Source: Spinacia oleracea
Lineage: Eukaryota > Streptophyta > Magnoliopsida > Caryophyllales > Amaranthaceae
NCBI RefSeq assembly: GCF_020520425.1
Contig: NC_079491.1
Coordinates: 45,064,027-45,128,026 of the forward strand
Length of the DNA: 64,000 nucleotides
Reading direction: 5' to 3'
Part shown: one piece after another, positions 16,833 through 45,814 of the stretch
Position numbering within the stretch: position 1 is the stretch's first letter
Layout of the letters: each line of letters starts with the position of its first letter
Translations under genes and position numbers: made by a program
The notes under the pieces: generated by a model
Seen by the model: only the letters and a program-made list of their open reading frames with translations
The model's database searches: none
What the model was told of the DNA's origin: nothing

Positions 16833-17561
16833 CCCTATGTAATACCCCAAATTTTAGAGTATTTTCTAATAAATAATTTTAGTAATTTAAAATTATTTAA
16901 TGGTTTAAAACAAAGATTTTATTAATTTTTTTTAAAAAATGAAGGAATAATGATATTCAAATTTTATTGTTTTTCTGGAATTAAAGTCTGAATTATTAGA
17001 ATAAATAGTACCCTAATTAGCCCAAGTATCCCCCACCTATAAATATTCCAGAAACTCAAAAATGCCTTGAAAAACACTGATTTCAAAGAAGCCCTCATTG
17101 TCTTTTAGCCGTCACCACCATCTCCATCAACCAACAATAGCATTGGGTAAGTTCCTATCACAAACTCTTTATCCATAGATTACTGTATCATAAATTCTTC
17201 AAATAATAACTATGACAATATCATTCCTTACTTTGCTACATGTATGTTGAGTAAATTAAAAAGGAAAATTAATTAGTATTAATATAACTTTGCTTGCTTA
17301 TTGCTTGACCATCATTGAAGCGCCTTATCTCACGATAGCGTCGCCCTATTAGTGCTCCATTTCAATAGTTCTGACGATACTTCACTTTGGACTATTTTCT
17401 TCCTCCTCTTCATTCTTCTCGCACGAGATTCATATGGGTGACACAAGTTTTACATAAATTACTCAAATATGTATATTATATATTTTTATTTTTATTTTTT
17501 TTAAATAAAACATAGTCTTACCTTGGACTTGTTTCTTGTTTTACATCACAATTTTTGGAAC

Positions 17562-17563
<2 letters not shown>

Positions 17564-17647
<84 letters not shown>
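17564..17647. repeat. (AT)n microsatellite, about 42 repeats
   Basis: Uninterrupted AT dinucleotides. The same site in the sister LTR (48711-48727) has only about 8. The lengths of the two LTRs (about 2,135 and 2,070 bp) differ mainly because of this tract. It also creates a spurious Tyr-Ile repeat ORF. Confidence 0.97.
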
Positions 17648-17648
<1 letters not shown>

Positions 17649-18208
17649 GAAGTAAAGTATTAAAAGAAAAACTAGTAGTTTGGTGTATATTTTTAATGTT
17701 TCGTTGTTTCCACGTACGTTCTCGTTTTCGCATATTGGTATTTGTGAGTAACGCGTCTTAATTTCTTGTGTTTTTCGAATAAATATGTACTCCTATACTG
17801 TATGGTTACTAAGGCTATCATAGAGAGTAGAACTATTCTAACAGAGTATCAATCCTATATGTTAGTAAGTACTAGCTACTTCTCCTATTTAGTATACTAA
17901 CTTAGGGTTATGTTATCTGTTTTAGTGGACAAAGGATATCTAGGTCTTACGCAAGGAGGCTATTAATTTGAATTAGTGCACACAAGGTAAATTTCAATGT
18001 CCATCAATCTAGCTTCCCTTAAGAAAATGATTTTGGACTTGTTTATGTGCTCACTATGTGATAGTTATGTGATAATGTGTAATTATGAAAGCTATTACTA
18101 TTGTTATTTTATGGAAATAATTGTTTGATTGATTGAGATAGTGATGGTCGTGTGAGAATCGTACACTGTTGACCATAGAGTAGGTGATGTTAGGGAACCG
18201 TTGTTGCA

Positions 18209-18380
18209 GTGGGTGGTTATAGGGGCAAGCCCCAACCTACAAACATTCTGGGTATCGTAGGTGGTTATAGGGGCAAGCCCCGACCTACATAAGCTGTTTA
18301 ATATCGTAGGTGGTTCCAGGGGCCAGCCCCGGCCTACATGTGAGTGAAGTGGGTGGTTACAGGGACTAGTCCCAGCCTAC
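18209..18380. repeat. four tandem hairpin units in the LTR
   Basis: Four units of about 32 bp at 48-50 bp spacing (18209, 18257, 18306, 18349). Each reads GTRGGTGGTT, then GGGGC-NN-GCCCC or GGGACTAGTCCC, then RCCTAC, so each can fold back on itself. The same array is in the 3' LTR at about 49293-49465. Confidence 0.85.
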
Positions 18381-18788
18381 TAGAGTTCGTTATCCATGCC
18401 TTAGTTAATAGATGGATCGGACTTGTGTGGTACTTTAATAAGTGACCGTTTGTCTATTTGTTTTACTATCTTGTATATGTGATAATTTAAATAATTTAAA
18501 TTATTAAATTATTCTCGTTCGTGTATATTTATTTTACTTGCTAAAATATTGTTTAAAATAATTTTTTATTATTTTACGGGATGGAGTTGGAATTACTCAG
18601 TTTTTTCTGATTTTTGGGAGTCGTCTCTCTTGTCTCTTTTCTATCTATTTTTGCAGGTTGGTAAAGGTATTTGGCTATGAGTGAGGAGACGCTTAGAATA
18701 ACCACCTAGTCAAGAGACAATTTCTATTTTAGTTTAAGTTGGATTTTGTTATTTATTTTATGGGAATTGGTTGTAATATTTTATGGGC

Positions 18789-22853: not shown

Positions 22854-22905
22854 TGTTATAAATATATTGTATTGTGGATGCCCATTATACCCCTGACATC
22901 CTTAT
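22854..22905 (+). repeat. 3' LTR of the Copia-like element, first part
   Basis: The first 52 bp of the LTR, ending in CTTAT, the TSD of the inserted Tat array. The remaining 102 bp are at 45815-45916 after the second CTTAT copy (45810-45814). Confidence 0.95.
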
Positions 22906-23427
22906 TGTTGTGGGGTTTTTCCGGTGAGATACCTGGGAGGTTTCTTGGTAACTTTTACAGATTAAACAAGATTGTATTTTTATAGAGAGAGAAAGTAGAG
23001 AGAAGGCAGAGCAGCAATTGCTCTAGAATGTATTGATTGTGACCCCTTTTTCTAGGGAAGTGGGAATATTTATAGTACTAGGTTTTTGGGGGAATGACCT
23101 AATATTCCCCTTACATGATTGGCTGGGGAATGGGAGGAGGACACGTGTCCTTTCTCCTTACAATTCTCTGGTCTCTTTTGGCAATAGTGGGCTGTTTGGG
23201 CCTATTGTGCTTAGTCATTCACTTGGGATACATACTAATTAAGCCCCTTTCCAGGTATAGGTGTTATACATACATTTATACACACTTAAATACATACATT
23301 GTAGATACCTAGATTAATACTCATGCCTCGGAGTAGACTTCGTATGATTTCTGCTTAGGGGGCGCAATACGTGCCATGTGTCACGTCCTCATTGGTACAC
23401 GAAGGCACGGTAATTTTGCCCACAACA
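22906..23427 (-). repeat. Tat LTR 1 (522 bp, outer 3' LTR)
   Basis: Plus-strand ends TGTTGTGGGG and GCCCACAACA. I could see no difference from LTRs 2 and 3. It lies just upstream, in plus direction, of the aORF promoter region. It contains a 14-bp palindrome aggacacgtgtcct (G-box core) at 23138-23151. Confidence 0.95.
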
Positions 23428-23440
23428 TTTGCCCCTCAAG
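23428..23440 (-). promoter_or_regulatory. polypurine tract of Tat copy 1
   Basis: On the minus strand it reads cttgaggggcaaa directly before the LTR, the place and composition expected for plus-strand priming. Copy 2 has the same tract at 33696-33708. Confidence 0.75.
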
Positions 23441-23522
23441 AAGGGCATTTCTGGAAACACATTCCGGGTATCGCTTCTTGACTCTTGTTTTGCATCTTCA
23501 TCTTTGGGTCAGGTGTTGAGAT

Positions 23523-23568
23523 GGTGACACGTGTCACCTTTCTCCATTTTGCCCCTCCCTATATATAG
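23523..23568 (+). promoter_or_regulatory. probable promoter of the aORF, copy 1: palindromic G-box and TATA box
   Basis: A perfect 16-bp palindrome ggtgacacgtgtcacc at 23523-23538, centred on the bZIP/bHLH core CACGTG, lies about 20 bp upstream of ctatatatag (23559-23568). The sense is opposite to gag-pol. A leader of about 400 nt follows. The layout is that of a plant pol II core promoter; activity is inferred. Confidence 0.6.
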
Positions 23569-23979
23569 AGGTGAGGGGGGTAAATTTCATTTTTTACATT
23601 TCATTTTCACAGAGCTTTCATAGGCGATTTCCGGCGTGTTCCTACCACCATCAGGCGATTTCCGGCCACCACGAGACTCATCCTTTTCCTCGTCACACTC
23701 ATCCTGTTCTTCGTGAAGTTCATCCCGTTCTTCGCGATACTCATCCTGTTCTTCACCAAGTACTTCGCAGATCTTTCAAGGTTAGTTTTCGCCATTTTTG
23801 TTATCCTCTTGACATTTTTCTCTTTGTTAGCGGCCGACCTCTTAGTACTAGGTAAGGGTTTAAAGGTTTTATTTAAGATTTTTCCGCCGTTCATCTTTTG
23901 TCGGGGCGGACGTCCAATCGCGTCTTTTTCTTCATTGTTGGTCACCCCTAAGCCGTGCTTCGTTCACTATGCAGAAGGC

Positions 23980-26900
23980 ATGGCTAGAACCAAGCAAACG
24001 GCAGATCCGACGCGCCTGCGCTTGCGGGAAGAAGCATCGACACCTCCTAGGGAGAGATATTCTTCCACCGCCTCGGCAGTCGACGAAGAATTTGCCGAAC
24101 TCTTTCAAGAGATCGACGAGTACGTCGAGGCGGGGGAGCAGGCGGCAAGCTCGTCGGAGGGTAGAGCGAGCCAGGCAGTGGGGGAGCCAAGCGTCGCTCC
24201 ATTGTCATCGGCCGCCGAGGAACAAGAAGCTGCTCCCCAGCTTATTAGGCCCAGAGGACGGGAGGAGGCCCAATTGCTTCCGTCAGAGATTCACCCAGAC
24301 GTGGGCTGGATGCGGTGGCTAGACAGGCATGGAGCCAAGATGAGGGATGACCTCTGCGTGGGGGAAGGGTACCAAATGCGCGTGCCGGCCGGTCTGGACT
24401 CGACCGTCAGCCTGCTTGCCGAGGGAGAATTCCCTGTGTATGCCGCGTCAATCAAACTCGGCATGAGATTCCCTCCACACCCCTTCGTTGTGGAGGTGTT
24501 AGATGGTTTCAATATTGGGGTGGCTCAGCTGACCCCCAACTCATGGGCGGATATCTTTGGCTACATTGCCAAATGTGCACTGAACGACGTGGAGCCGTCC
24601 TTCAACGCCTTTCTGCATCTGGTCTCCCTCTCTCGTTCCCCCAGTGCCGCCAAAGGGTGGTTTAATCTGAGCAGCCGTGGTACCTACCAGACAGTGGTCG
24701 GCAAGCTCAGCAAGTGGCATATGTGGAGGAAGAGGTGGGTCGTGTTTTACACTGACGACCAGGAGATGTATGAGAGAATGAGCCGTTGGAACTGTGACGC
24801 CAACTTCATGGATCGTGACGAGCCCCTTCCCCCCCTTACTGCCGAAGAGTGGGATCAGATAATGGTCCTGTTCAGGGCCAACACTTACCACTTAACAGTG
24901 GATAAGAGTTTCCATGTGCCGGCCGAGTGGTTGCCGCACATTAGCCAGTTTCGGAACGAGGCCTTTCTAGCGGCCGTAGGCTTAGGATATTCCATGACTC
25001 GAGGTTGTATGCCAATTTATGTGCCGTTCCGCGTTGGTCTATTCATTTTTTCTAACTTTGGATTTCTTTTGTTCACAGAGGAAGGAATGAGCAAGCTATC
25101 GGCGGCGGATATTGGGAAGGGCGATATGACCGATTGGATGGCGGACATCTATGAGGCCAAGATGCAGAAAGCCAAGGCCGAGTTGGAGGAGAAGGTGAGT
25201 ATTCTCTTAGGTTGTCGTTTTTTTTTTTTTGCAAGTTAAACTTCTCCCGTCCAGCGTCTACAGTGGACGTCTTTTTAGTGACGAGCCGATATCCTGATAT
25301 CTGACCCGTGTTTGCTAAGGTAGGCCTCGTCACTTTTTATTGACGGGCCCCTTAGTTAGTGTTTTTTCAAGTGACTCGTGATTGATAGGGTACGCCTCGT
25401 CATTTTTGGGACGGGCGTCCTTTTTAATGACGAGCCACTTTTCTGCGATTGACTTGCACTTGATAAGGTACGCCTCGTCATTTTTAAGACGGGCGTCCTT
25501 TTTAATGGCGAGCCACTATTTATTGAGTGACTTGTGATTGATAAGGTACGCCTCGTCATTTTTAAGACGGGCGTCCTTTTTAATGACGAGCCACTATCTT
25601 GTGAGTGACTTGTGATTGATAAGGTACGCCTCGTCATTTTTAAGACGGGCGTCCTTTTTAATGACGAGCCACTATCTTGTGAGTGACTTGTGATTGATAA
25701 GGTACGCCTCGTCATTTTTAAAACGGGCGTCCTTTTTAATGACGAGCCACTATCTTGTGAGTGACTTGTGATTGATAAGGTACGCCTCGTCATTTTTAAA
25801 ACGGGCGTCCTTTTTAATGACGAGCCACTATCTTGTGAGTGTCTTGTGATTGATAAGGTACGCCTCGTCATTTTTAAGACGGGCGTCCTTTTTAATGACG
25901 AGCCACTATCTTGTGAGTGACTTGTGATTGATGAGGTACGCCTCGTCATTTTTAAGACGGGCGTCCTTTTAAATGACGAGCCACTATCTTGTGAGTGACT
26001 TGTGATCGATGAGGTACGCCTCGTCATTTTTAAGACGGGCGTCCTTTTAAATGACGAGCCACTACATGGTGAGTGACTTGCGATAGATGACGAGGCCTAA
26101 TATTTGACTGTCCTTTCTTTTTTAGCAAGCTAAGGACGCGGCTAGGGCGTCAGGGAAGAAGAAGGGGACGACTCTGTCCCAGCTGAAGAAGAGAGCTGTG
26201 CCGGCTGGCTCGGAGACTCCGAGTACCTTCAAGAAGCCAAAACCCCTACCTCGCCGTCTCGTGAAGAAAGACGAGTCGAAGGTTGCTGAGGGGGGATGCC
26301 CTGATGACGAAGAGATGGGCGTGGACAAGCCGTCTCTGGTGGTGGACTTGGTGGAGGACCCTCTTTCGGGAATCCCGGCCGACGTCCGCTCTCAGATACC
26401 GGCGGAGGTGGCCCGCCGAGCTAGGTCTTCGGGTGGTAAGTATTATTCGAACGTCGTTCAGACGTATCGAGCCTCCTCTGGCAGTTCTTCTTACTCTCCG
26501 CGTCATCCTAAGGCCATTGTTTTTCCTATAGCCAAAGACAAAGGGAAGGATGCAGCTGCTGCCGAGGATGAGAACGTACCTGCTACTCCACACTATTCGT
26601 CAAAGGATAGGGTGGCTATATGCCGCAAGGTTTTTAAGGCCGTCCCCGCTGAGTATGTTGCTTCTCTTCCTGGCCGCAAGACTGACGCCCAGTTTGGTGC
26701 GATCCAGGCCACTCTTCTCGACGTAAGTCTATTTCCAACTTGCTTGTACTTGTCTTCCCTTTTAGAGTCATTTACTAATATGTAGCTTCTTCTGCAGTTG
26801 TTCTGCCGCATGGAATTCTGCAAGAGATGGAAGACCCGCACTGCTGAGGAGCTCAAAGCTCAGGTGGCTGAGTCCACCCACCATGGTGACTATGCGTTCA

Positions 26901-27391
26901 AGTCCATTGAAGAGGTCCGCCTGCAGATGCAGACGACCATAGACCTTCAAGCGAAGGAGGTGGCTGCGTTGAGATCTGACAAGGCCGAGCTGCTTAAGAA
27001 GATCTTGGCGCAGGACAAGGACATGGTGGCAATGGTCGAGGAAGCCAAGACAGCGGCGGCGGAAATACGGGCGCTTCAGGACCAGTTGCGGGAGTACCCT
27101 CAGGTCAAAGAGGCGGCTGAGGAAGCCGAGCATCTTCGTGGGGAGCTAGAGACGGCCAGATCGCAAGTTCGCACCTTGCGTGAGCGTCTTCTGGAATCCT
27201 ATGATCAGGGGGAACAAGCGACCAAGGACGCTGTTAAGCACGCCTGGGAGAGCCACATGTCAGAGTATGATCTTGGGTGGTTCCAGCGGCGAATGGAGCA
27301 CAGTGCCGCTGTGTTGGCTGCTGAACGTCTTGGTCAGCCGCCCCCTGAGTTTGTATCATCTGATGACGAGGACGATGCGGCCGCCCCCTGA
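23980..27391 (+). CDS. additional ORF (aORF) of Tat copy 1, putative gypsy-type transposon protein family, histone-H3-like N-terminus
   Basis: Coding exons 23980-25194, 26126-26722 and 26798-27391, all phase 0 with clear GT-AG ends and a tactaat branch site in the last intron. A further 75-nt intron (25004-25078, branch site tctaac, acceptor ttcacag) may be removed from exon 1. The product is 801 or 776 residues. It starts MARTKQTADPTR. Residues about 100-340 resemble the plant 'putative gypsy type transposon' (Transposase_28-like) family (IGVAQLTPNSWADIF, KWHMWRKRWVVFY). Then come a basic linker, a long coiled coil and an acidic tail (SSDDEDD). Such antisense aORFs are known in Tat elements; their function is unknown. 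The ATG has G at -3 and +4 and is the only in-frame ATG upstream. Confidence 0.75.
25195..26125 (+). repeat. intron of aORF copy 1 with a 78-bp minisatellite (9 units)
   Basis: Between donor gaag|gtgagt and acceptor ttttttag|caag, a 78-bp unit repeats from about 25388 to 26090. Units are marked by gtacgcctcgtcattttt at 25390, 25468, 25546, 25624 and so on. Each holds ctcgtcatt and its inverse aatgacgag about 25 bp apart, a perfect 9-bp stem. A degenerate tenth unit precedes. Because 78 is a multiple of 3, the minus strand shows a spurious 223-codon ORF. Confidence 0.9.
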
Positions 27392-29224
27392 TTTGCTTCC
27401 TTTCCTATTTTTTTTTAAAAAATTTTATTCAAGCGTTCCAGTGCCTAAGGGCAAAAACAATTATGTTGTAAAGTTTTGGCGCTGATGGCGTCTGTATCAT
27501 TGTGCCTGCTGAGCACACAACAATTCTCTTTCTTTTTCCTGGTCAGGAATTCTGAGCTACTTTCACACGCCTTTCTACGGGCGTTGTTTTATAAGTAAAT
27601 AGGTTTTTTGATGTTTCTCCTATCTCGCATTTACTTGCTCTTCATAATTTGATTATTCCTTGATCAATAGGCTTAATAGGCTTAATCAATAGGTATGGTT
27701 GCCAAGGTGCATCCGAGTGTACACTAAGCACGTTAATGCCGCAGGCAACTGAGTAGGCGCTAGGCCCTACTTTGGTCGTCACTTTCTTTGGCGAGCGTGT
27801 CCATAACGATATTGATTGGCGCAAGTCAATCAACAGGTATGATTGCCGCTAGACATGCTCGTCAAATGGACTGTACAGCCAAACGTTCGTGCCACCTAAC
27901 TTTGAGCAAACAACCTTTGTTTCGAAGTTAATCGTGCCGCTGAACTTTTGAGCGGACAACCTTTGTTTCCAAGTGGTTGGTGCCGCTGGAAACTGAGCAT
28001 GCGCTAGGCCCTACTTTGGTCGTCACTTTCTTTGGCGAGCGTGTCTATAACGATATTGATTGACGCAAGTCAATCAATAGGTATGATTGCCGCTAGACAT
28101 GCTCGTCAAATGGACTGGCCGGCCAAACATTCGTGCCGCCGCGCTTTTTAGCAAGCAACCTTTGTTTCGAAGTTAATCGTGCCGCTGAACTTTTGAGCGG
28201 ACAACCTTTGTTTCCAAGTGTTTGGTGCCGCTGGCAACTGAGCATGCGCTAGGCCCTACTTTGGTCGTCACTTTCTTTGGCGAGCGTGTCTATAACGATA
28301 TTGATTGACGCAAGTCAATCAATAGGTATGATTGCCGCTAGACATGCTCGTCAAATGGACTGGCCGGCCAAACATGCGTGCCGCCGCGCTTTTTAGCAAA
28401 CACCCTATGTTTCAAAGTTTCGAAGTTATACAATTAGGCTTTGTTTCGAAGTTAATCGTGCCGCTGAACTTTTGAGCGGACAACCTTTGTTTCCAAGTGT
28501 TTGGTGCCGCTGGCAACTGAGCATGCGCTAGGCCCTACTTTGGTCGTCTAATCTTTGGCGAGCGTGTCTATAACGATATTGATTGACGCAAGTCAATCAA
28601 TAGGTATGATTGCCGCTAGACATGCTCGTCAAATGGACTGGCCGGCCAAACATTCGTGCCGCCGCGCTTTTTAGCAAACACCCTATGTTTCAAAGTTTGT
28701 TCATGCCGCTGGGCTTTTGAGCGAACAACCTATGTTTCAAAGTTGTTCATGCCGCTGGGCTTTTGAGCGAACAACCTATGTTTCAAAGTTGTTCATGCCG
28801 CTGGGCTTTTGAGCGAACAACCTATGTTTCAAAGTTGTTCATGCCGCTGGCACGTATTATGCTGTACTGGTCGGCCAGCGGCTTGCTTATATTAGGAGGG
28901 TAGTTGGATAGGTGATCAGCCTACAACTTGGTGCTAATCTGGGCCACTACTTAGGCTTCAAACAATTAGTCTTGCTGAGTTTTTGCTAATCTGGGCCACT
29001 TCTCAGGCCGTCATACAATTAGGCTTTGGTTATGCATTGGAGTGTATATGTTTATATTCATTGTGCGAACAATAAATATTACGAAACAAATAGAGTAGTA
29101 TTATTTATAACTTTGCAAGGCGAATTTAGCCGGTTACAAAAGTAATTACTACCCTACTATGACCATTAGAGGCCGCCCCTTGGGCAATGGATCGTGGTAA
29201 GTAAGACAAGGCTTAGCACATATC
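27392..29224. repeat. repeat-rich spacer between aORF and gag-pol, Tat copy 1
   Basis: Four long units begin gcgagcgtgtc at about 27791, 28035, 28280 and 28558 (periods 244-278 bp). Each carries the inverted repeat ttgattgac-gcaa-gtcaatcaa. They are followed by at least three 46-bp units (gttcatgccgctgggctttt...) at about 28697-28850. Nothing else is recognised to 29224. Variable tandem repeats at this position (3' of integrase) are characteristic of Tat/Ogre-type elements and are known to seed satellite DNA. Confidence 0.85.
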
Positions 29225-32200
29225 TTAGAAGAAATATTTCTTGAGGTTGTCGGCATTCCAAGTGCGTGAAATAGGGCGGCCTTGCATGTCTTGAATGCGG
29301 TAGGTTCCATCTCTAACTTCATCATAGATCTCGTAAGGTCCCTCCCAAGTGGGCGTCAGCTTACCTTGTTCATTTGCTCGTCCTGTGGACTCCATTTTTC
29401 TGAGGACAAAATCTCCCACTTTGAGCACTCTATTAGAGACTCTCTTGTTGTATTCTCTTGCCATCCTTATCTTGTACAGCTGTTGCCTGAGCGCTGCATT
29501 TCCTCTAACCTCGGGCAGAAAGTCCAAGGCTGCTTTCATTGTCTCCCAGTTAGCATTTTCGTCATACAGCATGACTCTCAACGTTGGCTCACACATTTCT
29601 ATGGGTAGGACAGCCTCGGCGCCATAGGCTAGCAAGAAGGGTGTTTCACCGGTTGAATTCTTAGCCGTGGTGCGGATGGACCATAAGACATTTGGCAGCT
29701 CATCAGCCCATAGACCTTTGGCTTCGTCAAGCTTCTTTTTAATTCCTTCAGAGATAATTTTGTTGAACGCCTCAACCTGACCATTGGCTTGGGGTCGTCC
29801 GACTGATGCAAAACAGGTGTGTATACCGTGATCTGCCAGCCACTCTTTCAGCTTAGGCGTCTCAAACTGGGGCCCATTATCGAAGACTATAGCCTGTGGA
29901 ATCCCAAAGCGAGTCATGATGTTCTTCCAAATGAATGCTCTCACATCAGCAGTTTTTATGTTTTTGAGCGCTTCTGCCTCCACCCATTTGGTGAAGTAAT
30001 CTACGGCAACGATGACATAACGCCTTCCTCCTGGTGCGGTCGTGAATGGGCCTAGGAGATCCATCCCCCATTTAGCAAATGGAATTGGGCTTATAATGGG
30101 CGTCAGAACTCGTGCCGGTTGATGTATTAGGTGAGAAAAGCGCTGACATTTGTCACACTTCTTGACCAGTGAGATTGCGTCCTCCTTAAGGGTCGGCCAG
30201 TAATAGCCGGTTCGAAGTGCCTTTTCAGCCAAAGCCCTTCCACCAATATGCGAGCTGCACAACCCCTGATGAAGGTCTTCTAAAATTTCCTGCCCCTTCT
30301 CAGGTGTTACACATCTTAACAAAGGACGGGAGTAGGCCTTTTTGTAGAGGGTGCCGTTCCACATTTCAAACAAGAACATTCTTTTGAAGTTTTGCCGCTT
30401 CCCTTGAGTCTTCGGGCAAGAATCCATTCATTTTGAAGTTTACTATGTCATCCACCATGTGGACGTTCTGTCAAGAGTTTCCACTTCCATTTGCTCAACA
30501 CTTTTGTGCTCTTTTACCTCCCAGAACACGTGCCGAGGGGTATCACAAGACGCGGAACTTGCCAACTTTGACAGGCATCAGCTTGGTTATTTTCCGAGCG
30601 AGGGACTTGCCTTACTTCAAAACTTTTCAGTGGCTCTACTTCCTGATGGACGGCCTTGCATGGTGTCGCCACATTTTCGTTTGTTGCTCGACGTCCCTTT
30701 CTCTGCACCCGTTCCCATGCTTCGGACTCAAGGTGGTTAGGTAGCAACTCAGCTGGTGCTGGTCACCATGTATAGTGCTGACGCTCCATGTCACAAATGA
30801 TCTAAGAAGCATCAGTATGAGTCACAATGACAGCCTTTGCCTGTTCAACGGGGACGCCCCAAGATGATGTTATATGCCGTCAGATCTTTCACTATGAGAA
30901 AACGGACATCCATTTGCCGAGATTCCTTTTTATTTCCCATCCTCAGAGGAAGGGTAATTATGCCGACTGGGTGGATGACACTACCTCCGAAGCCTATAAT
31001 GGGATAGTGGATTTTCTCAATTTTTGAGGGATCATGTTGCAGTCGATTCAAGCACTCTAGACTAATTATGTCCGACGAACTTCCTGTATCAACCAAAATA
31101 CGCCTAACCCTTAGGTTAGCTACTTTTAACTCAATTACCAAAGGATCGTCATGCGGGGTGGAGATTTTCCCACGGTCGGCCTCGCCGATTTCAACTTTTG
31201 GAAACGGGTCAACTGTGGCCTTGCCGGACAGCATCACTTGTCCCAATCGCTTGGCATAATCCTTCTGGCCCCTAATGGTCGGCCCGCCGGCGGCCAATCC
31301 TCCTGAGATGACTGCCACGCACTCTGGGTCGGTACGATTCCCATCTTCCTCCGAGGGAGGGGATTTGTTTTTCTTGTAGAAGGGTTTGCCAGAACCTCCC
31401 GTGTTCCTGCTGATATAACTTTTTAAGAACCCCTTGGTGGCTAGGCCATCCAATGCCCTTTTCAAGCTCTTACATTCATTGGTGTCATGCCCAATGTCAC
31501 TGTGAAAGTGACAGTACAGTTTGGGGTCCCTACTTTCTGGTGGTGACTTCATGGGAAATGGACGATCAATGTCATATTTGGACCCGACGTCCATCAGGAT
31601 TGTGTACATGTCTGTGTTATACTCGAAACGCTCCCGATCATAAGTTCTGGGCCGTTTCTGACCTGCCGCTCCGGGGGCCCTGTCTGATTCTTTTGCAATA
31701 GCCCACGTCCCGTTAGGCCGGTTCTTCTTTTCAAATTTCTCCTTTTTTGCCGCTAGCTCGGCGTTATCACTTCCTCTGGGGTCTTTCGGGACGCTGCAAA
31801 TCTCTGTCGCATGAATGAAGGCCTCCGCCTCATCCAGCACTTCTGCCATTGTTCGGACGCTTTTCTTTACCAGATCAAACTTGAAAGAGCCCTTTTTAAG
31901 CCCTCGAATGAAGTTATCGAATGCAACACCATCTGGCAAATCCGGAATTTGCCCTGCCTCTAGATTGAATCTCTTCACATAACTCCTCAGGGACTCGTCC
32001 TTCCCTTGCTGAATCCTACTCAGATGCATGCTCGTCTTCTTCTCTTCCTTGTGAGCCATGAACCGAGTAGAGAACAATAGCTCGAGCTCCGAAAAAGAGC
32101 GAATAGTTCCGGCTGGAAGTCTCTCGAACCACTTAGAGGCTACTCCTTTGAGTGTGCCCGGGAAATACTTGCACCAAGTTGAGTCAGTTGTTCCTTGGAC

Positions 32201-33142
32201 ATACATGTGATGCCGGTAAACCAAGAGGTGCATGTCCGGATCTGTGGTACCATCGTAAGCATCAATGTTGGGCGGCTTGACTTTGGGTTCCCTCGGGGCT
32301 CTCATGATAGAGTCTGCAAAAGGGGTGGTGTGCCCTAGGGCCATGTTGGACACCCCCTCCTGAATGTGATATACAGGGTCTTGACGCCTGGAGTAAGGTA
32401 GCCGCAGGGAGGACTCGCGTCCGCGAGTTTGACGGGTTGGACGGGTGGCCCCTGGACGTGCCTGGCTCAGATGCGTATAAGTTGGATGAGGGAGAGGTCT
32501 ATCCGGCATGACGGGGGTTGACCCGGTGTCAGAAAGTTCCGACTCAGAGTCGGGCAACTGCTCTGCGCGTGGCTGCTCACGTCCTCGGGACGTTTCTCCG
32601 ACCAGCCGCCGTGGCATTCGGCGTGGTAGGTAAGACATGGTCTGATTTGGCTGACTTGTTGGCGGCTGTCTCCTTAGGTCCTCGCCTGTCAGCCTGGTCC
32701 AGACATTTGGGGGGCGTAAAGAAAGTGTTGGCCTATTGCTTGCCGGCCTCTCATGATTTGCAGCCACAGCAGTGGTGTAAATCAGCATACTCTTCTGTAC
32801 CTCAGCATTAACTGTCTTCCCTACATCAGCTTGGAACTCAGCCAAAATAGCCCGAAGAGCACCCACAGAGACAGGCATATCAGGGTTCTCCTCTATTACC
32901 GTATCCACCCGAGGATCCAGGTGTCCTCCAGGAGGGGTGCGATTGGCCTGGTCGTCCTCCTCGCTGAGCACCTCTACCTCGGCAGTGTGACGAGGGGTGT
33001 GCCCGGCCGCAAATGTACGTGCGGCATCTTCAGTGATTCTTGTGGCCGGCGTATGATGTTCAGTCGGCATTTCTCTTTCGAGGGGTGGCCGCTCTACGCG
33101 TGTAGGCCGCCCAGCATCGTTGTCCTGTCGTTGATCTTCCAT
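29225..33142 (-). pseudogene. gag-pol of Tat copy 1, RT and RNase H deleted, frameshifted
   Basis: The first part (ATG at 33142 down to about 30848) keeps gag and the protease motif DTGSS in frame. The last part (about 30370 down to 29225) keeps integrase with its HHCC finger and the three catalytic acids. Between them about 1.85 kb, equivalent to 40928-42767 of copy 2, is missing, taking away RT and both RNase H domains. About fifteen 1-3 base indels crowd 30365-30860 on both sides of the junction and break the frame. It cannot make a working polymerase. The break may partly be an assembly fault. Confidence 0.85.
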
Positions 33143-33173: not shown

Positions 33174-33695
33174 TGTTGTGGGGTTTTTCCGGTGAGATAC
33201 CTGGGAGGTTTCTTGGTAACTTTTACAGATTAAACAAGATTGTATTTTTATAGAGAGAGAAAGTAGAGAGAAGGCAGAGCAGCAATTGCTCTAGAATGTA
33301 TTGATTGTGACCCCTTTTTCTAGGGAAGTGGGAATATTTATAGTACTAGGTTTTTGGGGGAATGACCTAATATTCCCCTTACATGATTGGCTGGGGAATG
33401 GGAGGAGGACACGTGTCCTTTCTCCTTACAATTCTCTGGTCTCTTTTGGCAATAGTGGGCTGTTTGGGCCTATTGTGCTTAGTCATTCACTTGGGATACA
33501 TACTAATTAAGCCCCTTTCCAGGTATAGGTGTTATACATACATTTATACACACTTAAATACATACATTGTAGATACCTAGATTAATACTCATGCCTCGGA
33601 GTAGACTTCGTATGATTTCTGCTTAGGGGGCGCAATACGTGCCATGTGTCACGTCCTCATTGGTACACGAAGGCACGGTAATTTTGCCCACAACA
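33174..33695 (-). repeat. Tat LTR 2 (522 bp, shared middle LTR)
   Basis: Same ends and length as LTRs 1 and 3. It serves as 5' LTR for copy 1 and 3' LTR for copy 2. It has no TSD of its own: it is bordered by a primer-binding site on the left and a polypurine tract on the right. Confidence 0.95.
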
Positions 33696-34247: not shown

Positions 34248-37200
34248 ATGGCTAGAACCAAGCAAACGGCAGATCCGACGCGCCTGCGCTTGCGGGAAGA
34301 AGCATCGACACCTCATAGGGAGAGATATTCTTCCACCGCCTCGGCAGTCGACGAAGAATTTGCCGAACTCTTTCAAGAGATCGACGAGTACGTCGAGGCG
34401 GGGGAGCAGGCGGCAAGCTCGTCGGAGGGTAGAGCGAGCCAGGCAGTGGGGGAGCCAAGCGTCGCTCCATTGTCATCGGCCGCCGAGGAACAAGAAGCTG
34501 CTCCCCAGCTTATTAGGCCCAGAGGACGGGAGGAGGCCCAATTGCTTCCGTCAGAGATTCACCCAGACGTGGGCTGGATGCGGTGGCTAGACAGGCATGG
34601 AGCCAAGATGAGGGATGACCTCTGCGTGGGGGAAGGGTACCAAATGCGCGTGCCGGCCGGTCTGGACTCGACCGTCAGCCTGCTTGCCGAGGGAGAATTC
34701 CCTGTGTATGCCGCGTCAATCAAACTCGGCATGAGATTCCCTCCACACCCCTTCGTTGTGGAGGTGTTAGATGGTTTCAATATTGGGGTGGCTCAGCTGA
34801 CCCCCAACTCATGGGCGGATATCTTTGGCTACATTGCCAAATGTGCACTGAACGACGTGGAGCCGTCCTTCAACGCCTTTCTGCATCTGGTCTCCCTCTC
34901 TCGTTCCCCCAGTGCCGCCAAAGGGTGGTTTAATCTGAGCAGCCGTGGTACCTACCAGACAGTGGTCGGCAAGCTCAGCAAGTGGCATATGTGGAGGAAG
35001 AGGTGGGTCGTGTTTTACACTGACGACCAGGAGATGTATGAGAGAATGAGCCGTTGGAACTGTGACGCCAACTTCATGGATCGTGACGAGCCCCTTCCCC
35101 CCCTTACTGCCGAAGAGTGGGATCAGATAATGGTCCTGTTCAGGGCCAACACTTACCACTTAACAGTGGATAAGAGTTTCCATGTGCCGGCCGAGTGGTT
35201 GCCGCACATTAGCCAGTTTCGGAACGAGGCCTTTCTAGCGGCCGTAGGCTTAGGATATTCCATGACTCGAGGTTGTATGCCAATTTATGTGCCGTTCCGC
35301 GTTGGTCTATTCATTTTTTCTAACTTTGGATTTCTTTTGTTCACAGAGGAAGGAATGAGCAAGCTATCGGCGGCGGATATTGGGAAGGGCGATATGACCG
35401 ATTGGATGGCGGACATCTATGAGGCCAAGATGCAGAAAGCCAAGGCCGAGTTGGAGGAGAAGGTGAGTATTCTCTTAGGTTGTCGTTTTTTTTTTTTTTG
35501 CAAGTTAAACTTCTCCCGTCCAGCGTCTACAGTGGACGTCTTTTTAGTGACGAGCCGATATCCTGATATCTGACCCGTGTTTGCTAAGGTAGGCCTCGTC
35601 ACTTTTTATTGACGGGCCCCTTAGTTAGTGTTTTTTCAAGTGACTCGTGATTGATAGGGTACGCCTCGTCATTTTTGGGACGGGCGTCCTTTTTAATGAC
35701 GAGCCACTTTTCTGCGATTGACTTGCACTTGATAAGGTACGCCTCGTCATTTTTAAGACGGGCGTCCTTTTTAATGGCGAGCCACTATTTATTGAGTGAC
35801 TTGTGATTGATAAGGTACGCCTCGTCATTTTTAAGACGGGCGTCCTTTTTAATGACGAGCCACTATCTTGTGAGTGACTTGTGATTGATAAGGTACGCCT
35901 CGTCATTTTTAAGACGGGCGTCCTTTTTAATGACGAGCCACTATCTTGTGAGTGACTTGTGATTGATAAGGTACGCCTCGTCATTTTTAAAACGGGCGTC
36001 CTTTTTAATGACGAGCCACTATCTTGTGAGTGACTTGTGATTGATAAGGTACGCCTCGTCATTTTTAAAACGGGCGTCCTTTTTAATGACGAGCCACTAT
36101 CTTGTGAGTGTCTTGTGATTGATAAGGTACGCCTCGTCATTTTTAAGACGGGCGTCCTTTTTAATGACGAGCCACTATCTTGTGAGTGACTTGTGATTGA
36201 TGAGGTACGCCTCGTCATTTTTAAGACGGGCGTCCTTTTAAATGACGAGCCACTATCTTGTGAGTGACTTGTGATCGATGAGGTACGCCTCGTCATTTTT
36301 AAGACGGGCGTCCTTTTAAATGACGAGCCACTACATGGTGAGTGACTTGCGATAGATGACGAGGCCTAATATTTGACTGTCCTTTCTTTTTTAGCAAGCT
36401 AAGGACGCGGCTAGGGCGTCAGGGAAGAAGAAGGGGACGACTCTGTCCCAGCTGAAGAAGAGAGCTGTGCCGGCTGGCTCGGAGACTCCGAGTACCTTCA
36501 AGAAGCCAAAACCCCTACCTCGCCGTCTCGTGAAGAAAGACGAGTCGAAGGTTGCTGAGGGGGGATGCCCTGATGACGAAGAGATGGGCGTGGACAAGCC
36601 GTCTCTGGTGGTGGACTTGGTGGAGGACCCTCTTTCGGGAATCCCGGCCGACGTCCGCTCTCAGATACCGGCGGAGGTGGCCCGCCGAGCTAGGTCTTCG
36701 GGCGGTAAGTATTATTCGAACGTCGTTCAGACGTATCGAGCCTCCTCTGGCAGTTCTTCTTACTCTCCGCGTCATCCTAAGGCCATTGTTTTTCCTATAG
36801 CCAAAGACAAAGGGAAGGATGCAGCTGCTGCCGAGGATGAGAACGTACCTGCTACTCCACACTATTCGTCAAAGGATAGGGTGGCTATATGCCGCAAGGT
36901 TTTTAAGGCCGTCCCCGCTGAGTATGTTGCTTCTCTTCCTGGCCGCAAGACTGACGCCCAATTTGGTGCGATCCAGGCCACTCTTCTCGACGTAAGTCTA
37001 TTTCCAACTTGCTTGTACTTGTCTTCCCTTTTAGAGTCATTTACTAATATGTAGCTTCTTCTGCAGTTGTTCTGCCGCATGGAATTCTGCAAGAGCTGGA
37101 AGACCCGCACTGCTGAGGAGCTCAAAGCTCAGGTGGCTGAGTCCACCCACCATGGTGACTATGCGTTCAAGTCCATTGAAGAGGTCCGCCTGCAGATGCA

Positions 37201-39493: not shown

Positions 39494-42400
39494 TTAGAAG
39501 AAATATTTCTTGAGGTTGTCGGCATTCCAAGTGCGTGAAATAGGGCGGCCTTGCATGTCTTGAATGCGGTAGGTTCCATCTCTAACTTCATCATAGATCT
39601 CGTAAGGTCCCTCCCAAGTGGGCGTCAGCTTACCTTGTTCATTTGCTCGTCCTGTGGACTCCATTTTTCTGAGGACAAAATCTCCCACTTTGAGCACTCT
39701 ATTAGAGACTCTCTTGTTGTATTCTCTTGCCATCCTTATCTTGTACAGCTGTTGCCTGAGCGCTGCATTTCCTCTAACCTCGGGCAGAAAGTCCAAGGCT
39801 GCTTTCATTGTCTCCCAGTTAGCATTTTCGTCATACAGCATGACTCTCAACGTTGGCTCACACATTTCTATGGGTAGGACAGCCTCGGCGCCATAGGCTA
39901 GCAAGAAGGGTGTTTCACCGGTTGAATTCTTAGCCGTGGTGCGGATGGACCATAAGACATTTGGCAGCTCATCAGCCCATAGACCTTTGGCTTCGTCAAG
40001 CTTCTTTTTAATTCCTTCAGAGATAATTTTGTTGAACGCCTCAACCTGACCATTGGCTTGGGGTCGTCCGACTGATGCAAAACAGGTGTGTATACCGTGA
40101 TCTGCCAGCCACTCTTTCAGCTTAGGCGTCTCAAACTGGGGCCCATTATCGAAGACTATAGCCTGTGGAATCCCAAAGCGAGTCATGATGTTCTTCCAAA
40201 TGAATGCTCTCACATCAGCAGTTTTTATGTTTTTGAGCGCTTCTGCCTCCACCCATTTGGTGAAGTAATCTACGGCAACGATGACATAACGCCTTCCTCC
40301 TGGTGCGGTCGTGAATGGGCCTAGGAGATCCATCCCCCATTTAGCAAATGGAATTGGGCTTATAATGGGCGTCAGAACTCGTGCCGGTTGATGTATTAGG
40401 TGAGAAAAGCGCTGACATTTGTCACACTTCTTGACCAGTGAGATTGCGTCCTCCTTAAGGGTCGGCCAGTAATAGCCGGTTCGAAGTGCCTTTTCAGCCA
40501 AAGCCCTTCCACCAATATGCGAGCTGCACAACCCCTGATGAAGGTCTTCTAAAATTTCCTGCCCCTTCTCAGGTGTTACACATCTTAACAAAGGACGGGA
40601 GTAGGCCTTTTTGTAGAGGGTGCCGTTCCACATTTCAAACCAAGAACATTTCTTTTGAAGTTTTGCCGCTTCCCTTGAGTCTTCGGGCAAGAATCCATTC
40701 ATTTTGAAGTTTACTATGTCATCCATCCATGTGGACGTTCTGTCAAGAGTTTCCACTTCCATTTGCTCAACACTTTTGTGCTCTTTTACCTCCCAGAACA
40801 CGTGCCGAGGGGTATCACAAGACGCGGAACTTGCCAACTTTGACAGGGCATCAGCTTGGTTATTTTCCGAGCGAGGGACTTGCCTTACTTCAAAACTTTT
40901 CAGTGGCTCTACTTCCTGATGGACGGCCTGCATGTATTTGACCATAGTCGGATCCCTAGCTTCGTAGGTCCCATTAACTTGGCTCACAATCAGTTGGGAG
41001 TCAGATAGTGCTACAATCTCCTCGGCGCCTGCCGCCTTACACATTTTAATGCCACAAAGCAGGGCTTCATATTCGGCTTCATTATTTGACGCCTGGAAGT
41101 TAAATCGCATAGCATATTCAAAAGTATCTCCTTCTGGGGAGTGACAGATTATCCCTGCTCCACATCCATTCTGTGTGGATGAGCCGTCTACATACACTGT
41201 CCACACTGTGCTTGTATTCTTGGCAAAGTCTGGCCTCGTCATTTCAACAATGAAGTCGGCACATGCCTGCCCCTTGACAGCTTTCCTCGGCTCATAGGTG
41301 ATATCAAAGGCGTTCAGCTCTATTGCCCAATTCAGCATTCGTCCTGACGCCTCCAGCTTTGTGAAGGGCAGTTTGAGCGGCTGATCGGTGTAGATCACTA
41401 TTTTGTGAGCTAAGAAATAAGGACGGAGCTTTTTGCTGGCCATGAACAGAGCTAAGCCAAACTTTTCCACTGTAGGATATCTAACTTCAGCATTTTGAAG
41501 AACATGACTGACAAAGTATACCGGCATCTGTATTCCCTCCCTCTCTGTCAGTAGAACGGCACTCAACGAGTGCTCGGACACGGCGAGATACATGTACAAA
41601 GTCTCTCCTAGCAAGGGACTAACAAGACGAGGCAAGGTGTGTAAGTGCTCCTTTAATCTGACCAATGCCGCCTCGGCCTCGTCCGACCATTCAAACTTGG
41701 CCTTCTTTCTGACAGATCTAAAAAAGTAGTGGCACTTGTCTCCAGCCCTGGAAAGGAATCTGCCCAGGGCGGCCAAGCAACCTGTGAGCCGCTGGACCTC
41801 CTTCACTGTCTTTGGTGAGCTCATATCAATTACTGCCTGGATTTTGTCTGGGTTGGCTTCAATTCCTCTTTCATCAATCAAGAAACCTAAGAATTTGCCT
41901 GCCGTCACCCCGAACACACACTTCTTAGGATTCAACCTCATGTTGTAAGCTCGAATAGTCTCAAATGTCTCTCTGAGATCAGTTATATGCGCCGCCCTCA
42001 GCTTACTTTTTACGATCATATCGTCAATGTAAGCTTCAATATTCCTGCCGAGCTGCTTAATGAACACAGTGTTAATAAGACGCTGAAAAGTGGCCGGTGC
42101 ATTTTTTAACCCAAACGGCATCACCTTGTAGCAGTAAAGGCCTTGTTCAGTAACAAATGACGTTTTCTCCTGGTCGTCAGGCCACAACGGAATCTGGTGA
42201 AACCCTGAGTAGGCATCCATAAAGCTCATCATGGCATGCCCCGCTGTGGAGTCGACGAGCCGGTCAATCTTGGGCAATGGGAAACTGTCCTTTGGACATG
42301 CCCTATTGAGGTTGGTGTAATCAACACACATTCTCCAGGTACCATTAGGTTTTTTGACGAGGACCACATTAGCAACCCAGTCGGGGTACTGACTAGGCCT

Positions 42401-45256
42401 GACGAACCCAGCCTCCATCAACTTCTGTATTTCCGCGGCTGCCGCCTGATTTCTATCTTCCCCATGGTTCCTTTTCTTCTGACGAACCGGTTTAACGTTT
42501 GGGTCCACATTCAGCTTATGGACGGCCACAGCAGGGTCAATACCCGGCATTTCGTCCACCGTGAAAGCAAAGATATCTTCAAATTCTCTCAAAAGGTGGA
42601 CCAATTCTGCCGCCAGCGGGTCGTCAGGAGAAATCCCGATGGGCACTACTCTGTCAGGTTTGTCTGTGTTTAAAACCACATTGAAATGGGCCCCAACAGG
42701 CTCTGGGCGTCTCTCTTCCATGTGCCCTGCTGAGATAGTTAATGTTTCTTTGACGACCTTGGGTTGCGTGTCGCCACATTTTCGTTTGTTGCTCGACGTC
42801 CCTTTCTCTTCACCCGTCCCCCATGCTTCTGGACTCAAGGTGGTTAGGTAGCAATCTCTAGCTTGTTGCTGGTCACCATGTATAGTGCTGACGCTCCCAT
42901 CGTCACAAATGATATTAAGAAGCATCAGATGAGTCACAATGACAGCCTTTGCCCTGTTCAACGTGGGACGCCCCAAGATGATGTTATATGCCGTCAGATC
43001 TTTCACTATGAGAAAACGGACATCCATTTGCCGAGATTCCTTTTTATTTCCCATCCTCAGAGGAAGGGTAATTATGCCGACTGGGTGGATGACACTACCT
43101 CCGAAGCCTATAATGGGATAGTGGATTTTCTCAATTTTTGAGGGATCATGTTGCAGCCGATTCAAGCACTCTAGACTAATTATGTCCGACGAACTTCCTG
43201 TATCAACCAAAATACGCCTAACCCTTAGGTTAGCTACTTTTAACTCAATTACCAAAGGATCGTCATGCGGGGTGGAGATTTTCCCACGGTCGGCCTCGCC
43301 GATTTCAACTTTTGGAAACGGGTCAACTGTGGCCTTGCCGGACAGCATCACTTGTCCCAATCGCTTGGCATAATCCTTCTGGCCCCTCATGGTCGGCCCG
43401 CCGGCGGCCAATCCTCCTGAGATGACTGCCACGCACTCTGGGTCGGTACGATTCCCATCTTCCTCCGAGGGAGGGGATTTGTTTTTCTTGTAGAAGGGTT
43501 TGCCAGAACCTCCCGTGTTCCTGCTGATATAACTTTTTAAGAACCCCTTGGTGGCTAGGCCATCCAATGCCCTTTTCAAGCTCTTACATTCATTGGTGTC
43601 ATGCCCAATGTCACTGTGAAAGTGACAGTACAGTTTGGGGTCCCTACTTTCTGGTGGTGACTTCATGGGAAATGGACGATCAATGTCATATTTGGACCCG
43701 ACGTCCATCAGGATTGTGTACATGTCTGTGTTATACTCGAAACGCTCCCGATCATAAGTTCTGGGCCGTTTCTGACCTGCCGCTCCGGGGGCCCTGTCTG
43801 ATTCTTTTGCAATAGCCCACGTCCCGTTAGGCCGGTTCTTCTTTTCAAATTTCTCCTTTTTTGCCGCTAGCTCGGCGTTATCACTTCCTCTGGGGTCTTT
43901 CGGGACGCTGCAAATCTCTGTTGCATGAATGAAGGCCTCCGCCTCATCCAGCACTTCTGCCATTGTTCGGACGCTTTTCTTTACCAGATCAAACTTGAAA
44001 GAGCCCTTTTTAAGCCCTCGAATGAAGTTATCGAATGCAACACCATCTGGCAAATCCGGAATTTGCCCTGCCTCTAGATTGAATCTCTTCACATAACTCC
44101 TCAGGGACTCGTCCTTCCCTTGCTGAATCCTACTCAGATGCATGCTCGTCTTCTTCTCTTCCTTGTGAGCCATGAACCGAGTAGAGAACAATAGCTCGAG
44201 CTCCGAAAAAGAGCGAATAGTTCCGGCTGGAAGTCTCTCGAACCACTTAGAGGCTACTCCTTTGAGTGTGCCCGGGAAATACTTGCACCAAGTTGAGTCA
44301 GTTGTTCCTTGGACATACATGTGATGCCGGTAAACCAAGAGGTGCATGTCCGGATCTGTGGTACCATCGTAAGCATCAATGTTGGGCGGCTTGACTTTGG
44401 GTTCCCTCGGGGCTCTCATGATAGAGTCTGCAAAAGGGGTGGTGTGCCCTAGGGCCATGTTGGACACCCCCTCCTGAATGTGATATACAGGGTCTTGACG
44501 CCTGGAGTAAGGTAGCCGCAGGGAGGACTCGCGTCCGCGAGTTTGACGGGTTGGACGGGTGGCCCCTGGACGTGCCTGGCTCAGATGCGTATAAGTTGGA
44601 TGAGGGAGAGGTCTATCCGGCATGACGGGGGTTGACCCGGTGTCAGAAAGTTCCGACTCAGAGTCGGGCAACTGCTCTGCGCGTGGCTGCTCACGTCCTC
44701 GGGACGTTTCTCCGACCAGCCGCCGTGGCATTCGGCGTGGTAGGTAAGACATGGTCTGATTTGGCTGACTTGTTGGCGGCTGTCTCCTTAGGTCCTCGCC
44801 TGTCAGCCTGGTCCAGACATTTGGGGGGCGTAAAGAAAGTGTTGGCCTATTGCTTGCCGGCCTCTCATGATTTGCAGCCACAGCAGTGGTGTAAATCAGC
44901 ATACTCTTCTGTACCTCAGCATTAACTGTCTTCCCTACATCAGCTTGGAACTCAGCCAAAATAGCCCGAAGAGCACCCACAGAGACAGGCATATCAGGGT
45001 TCTCCTCTATTACCGTATCCACCCGAGGATCCAGGTGTCCTCCAGGAGGGGTGCGATTGGCCTGGTCGTCCTCCTCACTGAGCACCTCTACCTCGGCAGT
45101 GTGACGAGGGGTGTGCCCGGCCGCAAATGTACGTGCGGCATCTTCAGTGATTCTTGTGGCCGGCGTATGATGTTCAGTCGGCATTTCTCTTTCGAGGGGT
45201 GGCCGCTCTACGCGTGTAGGCCGCCCAGCATCGTTGTCCTGTCGTTGATCTTCCAT
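39494..45256 (-). CDS. Tat-lineage Ty3/Gypsy gag-pol polyprotein, intact (1,920 residues)
   Basis: One uninterrupted frame from the ATG at 45256. Domains by residue: gag about 280-440 (WFERLPAGTI); knuckle-like CHFH...GHDTNEC near 560; protease DTGSS near 685; reverse transcriptase about 940-1110 with FMDAYSG (Asp 1014) and YIDD (1076-1079); a retroviral-type RNase H whose first acidic residue is replaced (AVSEHSLSAVL); an archaeal-type RNase H about 1350-1475 with D1357, E1395, D1419, D1469; integrase with HHCC finger (H1573, H1580, C1611, C1614) and D1643, D1703, E1739 (spacing D-59-D-35-E). Integrase, including its C-terminal part, ends the frame. All catalytic residues of protease, RT, second RNase H and integrase are present, so it could be autonomous. 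Confidence 0.95.
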   Translation of the reverse strand: MEDQRQDNDAGRPTRVERPPLEREMPTEHHTPATRITEDAARTFAAGHTPRHTAEVEVLSEEDDQANRTPPGGHLDPRVDTVIEENPDMPVSVGALRAILAEFQADVGKTVNAEVQKSMLIYTTAVAANHERPASNRPTLSLRPPNVWTRLTGEDLRRQPPTSQPNQTMSYLPRRMPRRLVGETSRGREQPRAEQLPDSESELSDTGSTPVMPDRPLPHPTYTHLSQARPGATRPTRQTRGRESSLRLPYSRRQDPVYHIQEGVSNMALGHTTPFADSIMRAPREPKVKPPNIDAYDGTTDPDMHLLVYRHHMYVQGTTDSTWCKYFPGTLKGVASKWFERLPAGTIRSFSELELLFSTRFMAHKEEKKTSMHLSRIQQGKDESLRSYVKRFNLEAGQIPDLPDGVAFDNFIRGLKKGSFKFDLVKKSVRTMAEVLDEAEAFIHATEICSVPKDPRGSDNAELAAKKEKFEKKNRPNGTWAIAKESDRAPGAAGQKRPRTYDRERFEYNTDMYTILMDVGSKYDIDRPFPMKSPPESRDPKLYCHFHSDIGHDTNECKSLKRALDGLATKGFLKSYISRNTGGSGKPFYKKNKSPPSEEDGNRTDPECVAVISGGLAAGGPTMRGQKDYAKRLGQVMLSGKATVDPFPKVEIGEADRGKISTPHDDPLVIELKVANLRVRRILVDTGSSSDIISLECLNRLQHDPSKIEKIHYPIIGFGGSVIHPVGIITLPLRMGNKKESRQMDVRFLIVKDLTAYNIILGRPTLNRAKAVIVTHLMLLNIICDDGSVSTIHGDQQQARDCYLTTLSPEAWGTGEEKGTSSNKRKCGDTQPKVVKETLTISAGHMEERRPEPVGAHFNVVLNTDKPDRVVPIGISPDDPLAAELVHLLREFEDIFAFTVDEMPGIDPAVAVHKLNVDPNVKPVRQKKRNHGEDRNQAAAAEIQKLMEAGFVRPSQYPDWVANVVLVKKPNGTWRMCVDYTNLNRACPKDSFPLPKIDRLVDSTAGHAMMSFMDAYSGFHQIPLWPDDQEKTSFVTEQGLYCYKVMPFGLKNAPATFQRLINTVFIKQLGRNIEAYIDDMIVKSKLRAAHITDLRETFETIRAYNMRLNPKKCVFGVTAGKFLGFLIDERGIEANPDKIQAVIDMSSPKTVKEVQRLTGCLAALGRFLSRAGDKCHYFFRSVRKKAKFEWSDEAEAALVRLKEHLHTLPRLVSPLLGETLYMYLAVSEHSLSAVLLTEREGIQMPVYFVSHVLQNAEVRYPTVEKFGLALFMASKKLRPYFLAHKIVIYTDQPLKLPFTKLEASGRMLNWAIELNAFDITYEPRKAVKGQACADFIVEMTRPDFAKNTSTVWTVYVDGSSTQNGCGAGIICHSPEGDTFEYAMRFNFQASNNEAEYEALLCGIKMCKAAGAEEIVALSDSQLIVSQVNGTYEARDPTMVKYMQAVHQEVEPLKSFEVRQVPRSENNQADALSKLASSASCDTPRHVFWEVKEHKSVEQMEVETLDRTSTWMDDIVNFKMNGFLPEDSREAAKLQKKCSWFEMWNGTLYKKAYSRPLLRCVTPEKGQEILEDLHQGLCSSHIGGRALAEKALRTGYYWPTLKEDAISLVKKCDKCQRFSHLIHQPARVLTPIISPIPFAKWGMDLLGPFTTAPGGRRYVIVAVDYFTKWVEAEALKNIKTADVRAFIWKNIMTRFGIPQAIVFDNGPQFETPKLKEWLADHGIHTCFASVGRPQANGQVEAFNKIISEGIKKKLDEAKGLWADELPNVLWSIRTTAKNSTGETPFLLAYGAEAVLPIEMCEPTLRVMLYDENANWETMKAALDFLPEVRGNAALRQQLYKIRMAREYNKRVSNRVLKVGDFVLRKMESTGRANEQGKLTPTWEGPYEIYDEVRDGTYRIQDMQGRPISRTWNADNLKKYFF

Positions 45257-45287: not shown

Positions 45288-45809
45288 TGTTGTGGGGTTT
45301 TTCCGGTGAGATACCTGGGAGGTTTCTTGGTAACTTTTACAGATTAAACAAGATTGTATTTTTATAGAGAGAGAAAGTAGAGAGAAGGCAGAGCAGCAAT
45401 TGCTCTAGAATGTATTGATTGTGACCCCTTTTTCTAGGGAAGTGGGAATATTTATAGTACTAGGTTTTTGGGGGAATGACCTAATATTCCCCTTACATGA
45501 TTGGCTGGGGAATGGGAGGAGGACACGTGTCCTTTCTCCTTACAATTCTCTGGTCTCTTTTGGCAATAGTGGGCTGTTTGGGCCTATTGTGCTTAGTCAT
45601 TCACTTGGGATACATACTAATTAAGCCCCTTTCCAGGTATAGGTGTTATACATACATTTATACACACTTAAATACATACATTGTAGATACCTAGATTAAT
45701 ACTCATGCCTCGGAGTAGACTTCGTATGATTTCTGCTTAGGGGGCGCAATACGTGCCATGTGTCACGTCCTCATTGGTACACGAAGGCACGGTAATTTTG
45801 CCCACAACA
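45288..45809 (-). repeat. Tat LTR 3 (522 bp, outer 5' LTR)
   Basis: In minus direction a TATA box ctataaatatt (plus 45447-45457) probably drives gag-pol, putting the transcript start near 45420. It ends at the TSD CTTAT. Confidence 0.93.
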
Positions 45810-45814
45810 CTTAT

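Follow-up and report, generated by a model that had tools for sequence, protein, structure and literature searches.

A spinach Tat/Retand-type retrotransposon with an antisense gene predicted to encode a protein starting like histone H3

Antisense genes encoding proteins with the TRP28 domain are carried by almost every Retand element that has been active recently, according to the passages of PMC11963269 that deal with them, where the domain is also predicted to bind DNA. In the Grande elements, the corresponding passages of PMC7264820 describe the aORF protein (gene23 of maize) as nuclear, and its gene as an antisense accessory gene with a promoter of its own. A viral precedent for the imitation of the histone H3 N-terminus is provided by influenza NS1, as outlined in the relevant part of PMC5371896. 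Here we describe an antisense ORF (aORF) whose predicted product begins with the H3 heptapeptide ARTKQTA, carried by a retrotransposon in a window (the whole stretch of DNA analysed) of 64,000 nucleotides from Spinacia oleracea. The element lies on the minus strand, and the aORF, on the plus strand, is antisense to gag-pol. The parts of the element are as follows:

22906..23427, minus strand: 3' LTR, 522 bp, TGTTG...CAACA, with target site duplication CTTAT at 22901-22905 (repeat comparison)
33174..33695, minus strand: middle LTR of the tandem element (repeat comparison)
45288..45809, minus strand: 5' LTR, with target site duplication CTTAT at 45810-45814 (repeat comparison)
39494..45256, minus strand: gag-pol ORF of 1920 aa, with gag, protease-like (weak match), RT, RNase H, RVT_3 and integrase (ORF list, Pfam)
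29225..33142, minus strand: second gag-pol, of the other unit, internally deleted (ORF list, repeat comparison)

The layout is LTR-internal-LTR-internal-LTR within a single outer target duplication (CTTAT, 22901-45814), the three 522-bp LTRs are all identical, and the two units, compared over 23428-27690, are 5 substitutions and one 1-base indel apart. With part of pol missing from one unit, the tandem element looks to have arisen by recent recombination. Just inside the 5' LTR lies TTTGGCGCCGTCTGTGGGG, which resembles a primer-binding site. The gag-pol protein has an RT_RNaseH domain (residues 1219-1317) and a second, RNase H-like RVT_3 domain (residues 1357-1474; both Pfam), and a second RNase H domain is typical of the Tat clade, as stated in the pertinent part of PMC10508981. 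With its TG..CA LTRs, 5-bp target duplication, gag-pol with RT, RNase H and integrase, and antisense TRP28 ORF between pol and the 3' LTR, the element fits a Tat/Retand-type LTR retrotransposon, a placement made by domain content and the antisense PF04195 ORF rather than by RT phylogeny.

Two tandem arrays accompany the aORF. Repeats of 78 bp (about 25284-26207, repeat finder; the outermost copies are weak), situated mostly within its second intron, keep open a 223-aa ORF of 26-residue repeats on the sense strand of the element (25356-26027, minus strand), probably owing to a period divisible by three. The other array, with a period of about 244-278 bp, lies between the aORF stop and the end of pol (27657-28697 and 37926-38966). 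Elsewhere in the window, two pairs of long direct repeats resemble the LTRs of other elements (16837-18788 with 47987-49873, and 50282-51731 with 59675-61120); the members of both pairs are 97-98% identical by BLAST, and no target duplication was found at the BLAST edges of either pair. A gag ORF is located at 46801-47517, and a match to the plant C/D snoRNA snoR71 (Rfam; 62797-62903, minus strand) falls within the span of a gag-like ORF (62653-63126, plus strand).

The antisense gene is made up of the following features, all on the plus strand:

23560..23569, plus strand: TATA-box-like TATATATAGA, 133 bp in from the LTR edge, a candidate promoter for the antisense gene (picked by eye, putative function)
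33828-33837, plus strand: the same TATA-box-like sequence in copy 2 (picked by eye, putative function)
23781..23974, plus strand: predicted 5'UTR intron, AAG|GTTAGT ... CTATGCAG|AAG, 194 nt, 41% T (predicted splicing, ends picked by eye)
34049-34242, plus strand: predicted 5'UTR intron of copy 2 (predicted splicing)
23975..25194, plus strand: first coding exon, codons 1-405, matched by spinach protein P0001 from 23980 (tblastn of P0001); donor AAG|GTGAGT
34243-35462, plus strand: first coding exon of copy 2 (tblastn of P0001)
23980..24003, plus strand: aORF start of copy 1, M-ARTKQTA (pattern match, ORF translation)
34248..34271, plus strand: aORF start of copy 2, identical to copy 1 (pattern match, ORF translation)
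24439..24630, plus strand: Transposase_28 domain (PF04195, TRP28), residues 154-217 (Pfam on the copy 2 protein, E 3.6e-11)
25195..26125, plus strand: aORF intron 2, GT-AG ends, holding most of the 78-bp tandem repeats (P0001 mapping, repeat finder)
35463-36394, plus strand: aORF intron 2 of copy 2 (P0001 mapping, repeat finder)
26126..27391, plus strand: later aORF exons, 26126-26435, 26532-26722 and 26798-27391 (P0001 mapping)

P0001, of 769 aa, maps on the plus strand in four coding exons and has PF04195 at the identical residues 154-217. For introns 3 and 4 the search was restricted to GT-AG pairs, the best of which reproduces 363 of 364 residues of P0001. The later exons encode a basic stretch followed, up to the stop, by helices of low prediction confidence. 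Structure prediction from 6 sequences was poor throughout (mean pLDDT 39), residues 1-38 lying below 50 in this poor overall model.

ATG 23980 is the first in-frame ATG, no other occurring in the frame between it and the upstream stop at 23581, and it has G at both -3 and +4. The putative 5'UTR intron has canonical ends and would leave this codon 5 bases downstream of the exon junction; within 23560-23985 just one further ATG is present, at 23969, out of frame and inside that intron, so that splicing would delete it. P0001 also begins at ATG 23980. Because of the lack of an upstream in-frame ATG, the putative intron and the beginning of P0001, a start at this position is well supported, and ATG 23980 is probably the real start of the aORF protein. 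The true start could instead lie elsewhere, at ATG 23969 on unspliced RNA or in a fused upstream exon, or only the antisense RNA might matter, in which cases ARTKQTA would never be N-terminal. ATG 23969, with A at -3, begins an ORF in another frame that runs for over 100 residues, the P0005 protein model has the motif internal after upstream read-through, and antisense RNA may itself be regulatory, as discussed in the part of PMC7264820 concerned; but the upstream frame in the window, the canonical intron ends and the start of P0001 all speak against this possibility, which we consider improbable.

The start of the aORF, ATGGCTAGAACCAAGCAAACGGCA, encodes MARTKQTADPTR (M-ARTKQTA) and agrees with the back-translated pattern without mismatches in both copies (window pattern search); the plus strand reads ATGGCTAGAACCAAGCAAACGGCAGATCCGACGCGC from 23980, and the same from 34248. 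After the initiator Met, ARTKQTA is exactly the heptapeptide of histone H3 residues 1-7. A spliced aORF antisense to gag-pol, starting at ATG 23980 with the H3 heptapeptide, had been proposed in the preliminary description. The reading and coordinates were right in both copies, ORF translation bears out the H3 identity, the intron signals of the predicted splicing are present in an ORF antisense to gag-pol, and the TATA-like box, the putative 5'UTR intron, the ATG context and P0001 lend support to the start. Identity of the second copy had been pointed out as well; the sequence is indeed identical at 34248-34271, but it gives no independent support. The two copies count as a single observation, since they are units of one tandem element with identical LTRs, and their agreement was rejected as evidence of conservation. 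Removal of Met is expected when Ala comes next. At the level of sequence, the protein would thus expose an N-terminus matching H3 residues 1-4 and beyond, provided that translation starts here and Met is removed.

The likeness to H3 stops at residue 7, an acidic D8 being found where H3 has R8. No ARKS was seen by eye in P0001, and Pfam detected no histone fold in the aORF protein. A sequence search of the PDB with the first 40 residues rendered two weak matches only (scIg12, E 0.085; dIG14-scdim-EF62, E 0.18) and did not find H3, a match as short as this one being out of reach for such searching.

How often such a start would arise by chance was approached in several ways. Dinucleotide shuffling of the window, repeated 100 times, never produced a match even when up to 2 mismatches were allowed, and the viral collection rendered 0 matches to the DNA pattern. 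The prokaryote collection (257 billion bases) rendered 18, which we grouped by our own reading of the translations. Eight continue as H3 (L003, L005, L009, L010, L012, L014, L017 and L018), presumably eukaryote contamination; five encode MASTKQTA (L001, L004, L006, L011 and L013); and in five, MARTKQTA heads a non-H3 ORF of between 15 and 100 codons (L002, L007, L008, L015 and L016), although L002 and L007 go on with RK and might represent the ends of H3 exons. The ORFs of L015 and L016, of 97 and 100 codons, were read as chance matches. Chance MARTKQTA starts in 257 billion bases thus amount to a handful, none of them heading a long ORF. From average plant residue frequencies, the chance per protein start is about 1.6e-9, or an estimated few-fold higher if Ala is favoured at position 2. 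The earlier view that the match is unlikely by chance holds for one window, in which it exceeds chance, and coincidence is unlikely there, but it weakens once one considers that a great number of windows and of famous motifs are scanned.

All seven protein homologs found are from Spinacia oleracea. In one protein search, scoring was confined to the 7,994 candidates with the most words in common, and the protein searches, up to E 10 on the TRP28 core, rendered no relative outside spinach among sequences with shared words, those without any being missed; no relative of P0001 or of an RT piece was found in the viral collection. The heptad region is covered in three of the seven: P0001 and P0005 have ARTKQTA, the latter in a model that reads through an intron and has the motif internal, and P0002, a diverged spinach paralog, has ARTKQKA (MARTKQK). 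P0003, P0004, P0006 and P0007 are devoid of the N-terminal region. The T6 to K change is the sole difference between P0001 and P0002 in residues 1-31 (1 of 31, versus 15 of 69 in the linker 32-100; Fisher p 0.019, indicative only, the segment boundaries having been picked after the sequences were read), and residues 9-31 differ at none of 23 positions. Further on, the two proteins differ at 13 of 250 residues in 101-350, at 2 of 64 in TRP28 (154-217) and at 10 of 55 aligned residues in 351-450. P0005 has a change at residue 18, and window copy 2 one at residue 23. From these comparisons the N-terminal segment (residues 1-31) looks to be under constraint, within which, as judged from the same sequences, the H3-identical heptad does not look specially constrained.

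It can also be the case that the segment is constrained for other reasons, such as a basic patch, the initiation context, or an NLS-like or DNA contact, and that the heptad equals H3 by chance. The MARTKQK of P0002, the extension of low divergence to residue 31 without centring on the heptad, the breadth of the scan over many windows, ORFs and famous motifs, and the chance origin of non-H3 MARTKQTA starts (5 of the 18 pattern matches in the prokaryote collection) are consistent with this. The very low chance per start, the zero of five non-H3 matches exceeding 100 codons and the empty viral collection argue to the contrary, and we regard coincidence as a serious contender at clearly less than even odds.

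The preliminary description had also suggested that the start may have been captured from the 5' end of an H3 gene, with a codon choice close to that of plant H3 genes, or have arisen by convergence. Such an event, in which the element would have taken a host H3 5' end, perhaps with the acceptor of a 5'UTR intron, and fused it to the TRP28 ORF, would account for the ATG and 7 codons matching H3 and for a putative 5'UTR intron whose end lies 5 bases upstream of the ATG, introns in the 5'UTR being frequent in plant H3.3 genes. The comparison was made with six of the eight H3 genes from prokaryote-collection contigs, none of them a plant H3, L005 and L014 being left out for their short H3 frames. 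The first 24 bases are identical to these genes at 18-21 positions (21 in four of the six), but random synonymous codons alone give a mean of 18.7 of 24, with at least 21 in 9% of trials. Codon choice is mild evidence of capture at most, and not decisive. After codon 8, the DNA resembles the six H3 genes no more than base shuffles do (p 0.057 to 0.89, the lowest with L018), nor do its three frames resemble one H3 more than shuffles do (p 0.28 to 0.67). An out-of-frame H3 remnant after codon 8, suggestive by eye, disappeared against shuffles. Capture is thus unsupported, since H3 similarity ends at codon 8 and codon choice is not decisive, and we consider it very improbable; convergence or coincidence remain as origins of the ARTKQTA start.

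Functional mimicry of the H3 tail by the aORF protein is a good hypothesis, which we hold tentatively and at odds somewhat short of even, close to those of coincidence. Counted in its favour are the exact heptad at the initiator, the support for the start codon, the mapping of P0001 to the window, the low divergence between P0001 and P0002 in residues 1-31, the pLDDT below 50 of residues 1-38, the predicted DNA binding of TRP28, the nuclear location of the Grande protein and the viral precedent of NS1. Counted against it are the position of the sole P0001/P0002 difference of residues 1-31 inside the heptad, the end of H3 likeness at residue 7, the internal motif of P0005, and the homologs found, all of them from spinach. 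The sequence, the anatomy of the gene, the TRP28 domain and the identity to H3 are the observed basis of the mechanism that we propose. An antisense promoter of the element itself would drive a spliced transcript for the accessory TRP28 protein, and translation from ATG 23980 followed by Met removal would leave a free, flexible N-terminus, ARTKQTA, presumably not N-acetylated. A free ARTK N-terminus is needed by many H3K4 readers. In the nucleus, the tail would most likely serve as a short-linear-motif mimic, docking in pockets of host proteins that recognize the N-terminus of H3, candidate partners being PHD-type readers, WDR5-like proteins, H3K4 methylases/demethylases and a Haspin-type kinase; the T6K variant of P0002 retains ARTKQ, perhaps enough for many readers. 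Anchoring to element DNA or to chromatin might be provided by the TRP28 and coiled-coil parts, so that the tail would bring activating H3K4 machinery to the element or titrate silencing factors away. The fuller proposal, a DNA-associated antisense protein that acts as a transposon-borne H3-tail mimic, methylatable at K4 and phosphorylatable at T3 by the host, for anti-silencing or self-activation, is on present grounds rather unlikely.

Histone mimicry is also found in other pathogens. Should functional mimicry by the aORF protein prove real, plant transposons would join viruses (as treated in the relevant part of PMC5371896) and those pathogens as users of histone mimicry, which would hint at how these elements resist silencing. 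The function of TRP28 is presented as an open question in the passages of PMC11963269 devoted to it, and the H3-identical N-terminus offers a concrete and cheaply testable idea. Those passages do not mention an H3-like N-terminus, nor do the aORF passages of PMC11728184 and PMC12786077, and no earlier description of an H3-like aORF start appeared in the titles and abstract beginnings of the matches listed from the open-licence literature.

Several known systems share part of these traits. The SNAG domains of Snail and GFI1, bound by LSD1, are N-terminal H3-tail look-alikes, but they belong to host transcription factors and are not identical to H3, unlike the aORF heptad. Plant CENH3 tails begin with MARTK in several species and thus have an N-terminal ARTK in common with the aORF; they are, however, true histones, whereas the aORF protein lacks a histone fold according to Pfam. 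The Retand lineage of the Tat clade likewise has an antisense PF04195 ORF between pol and the 3' LTR, with tandem repeats in the same region, and its Spinacia oleracea cluster is given an LTR of 425 bp and an internal region of 10,719 bp in the part of PMC11963269 concerned, as compared to 522 bp and 11,592 bp (33696-45287) here. Grande gene23 of maize, compared by its description in PMC7264820, is an antisense accessory gene as well. In influenza NS1 the mimic is C-terminal, hence without a free Ala1, and it has been shown experimentally by others in a protein unrelated to the aORF; as here, the terminus of a parasite protein resembles the N-terminus of H3 (PMC5371896, in the part dealing with NS1).
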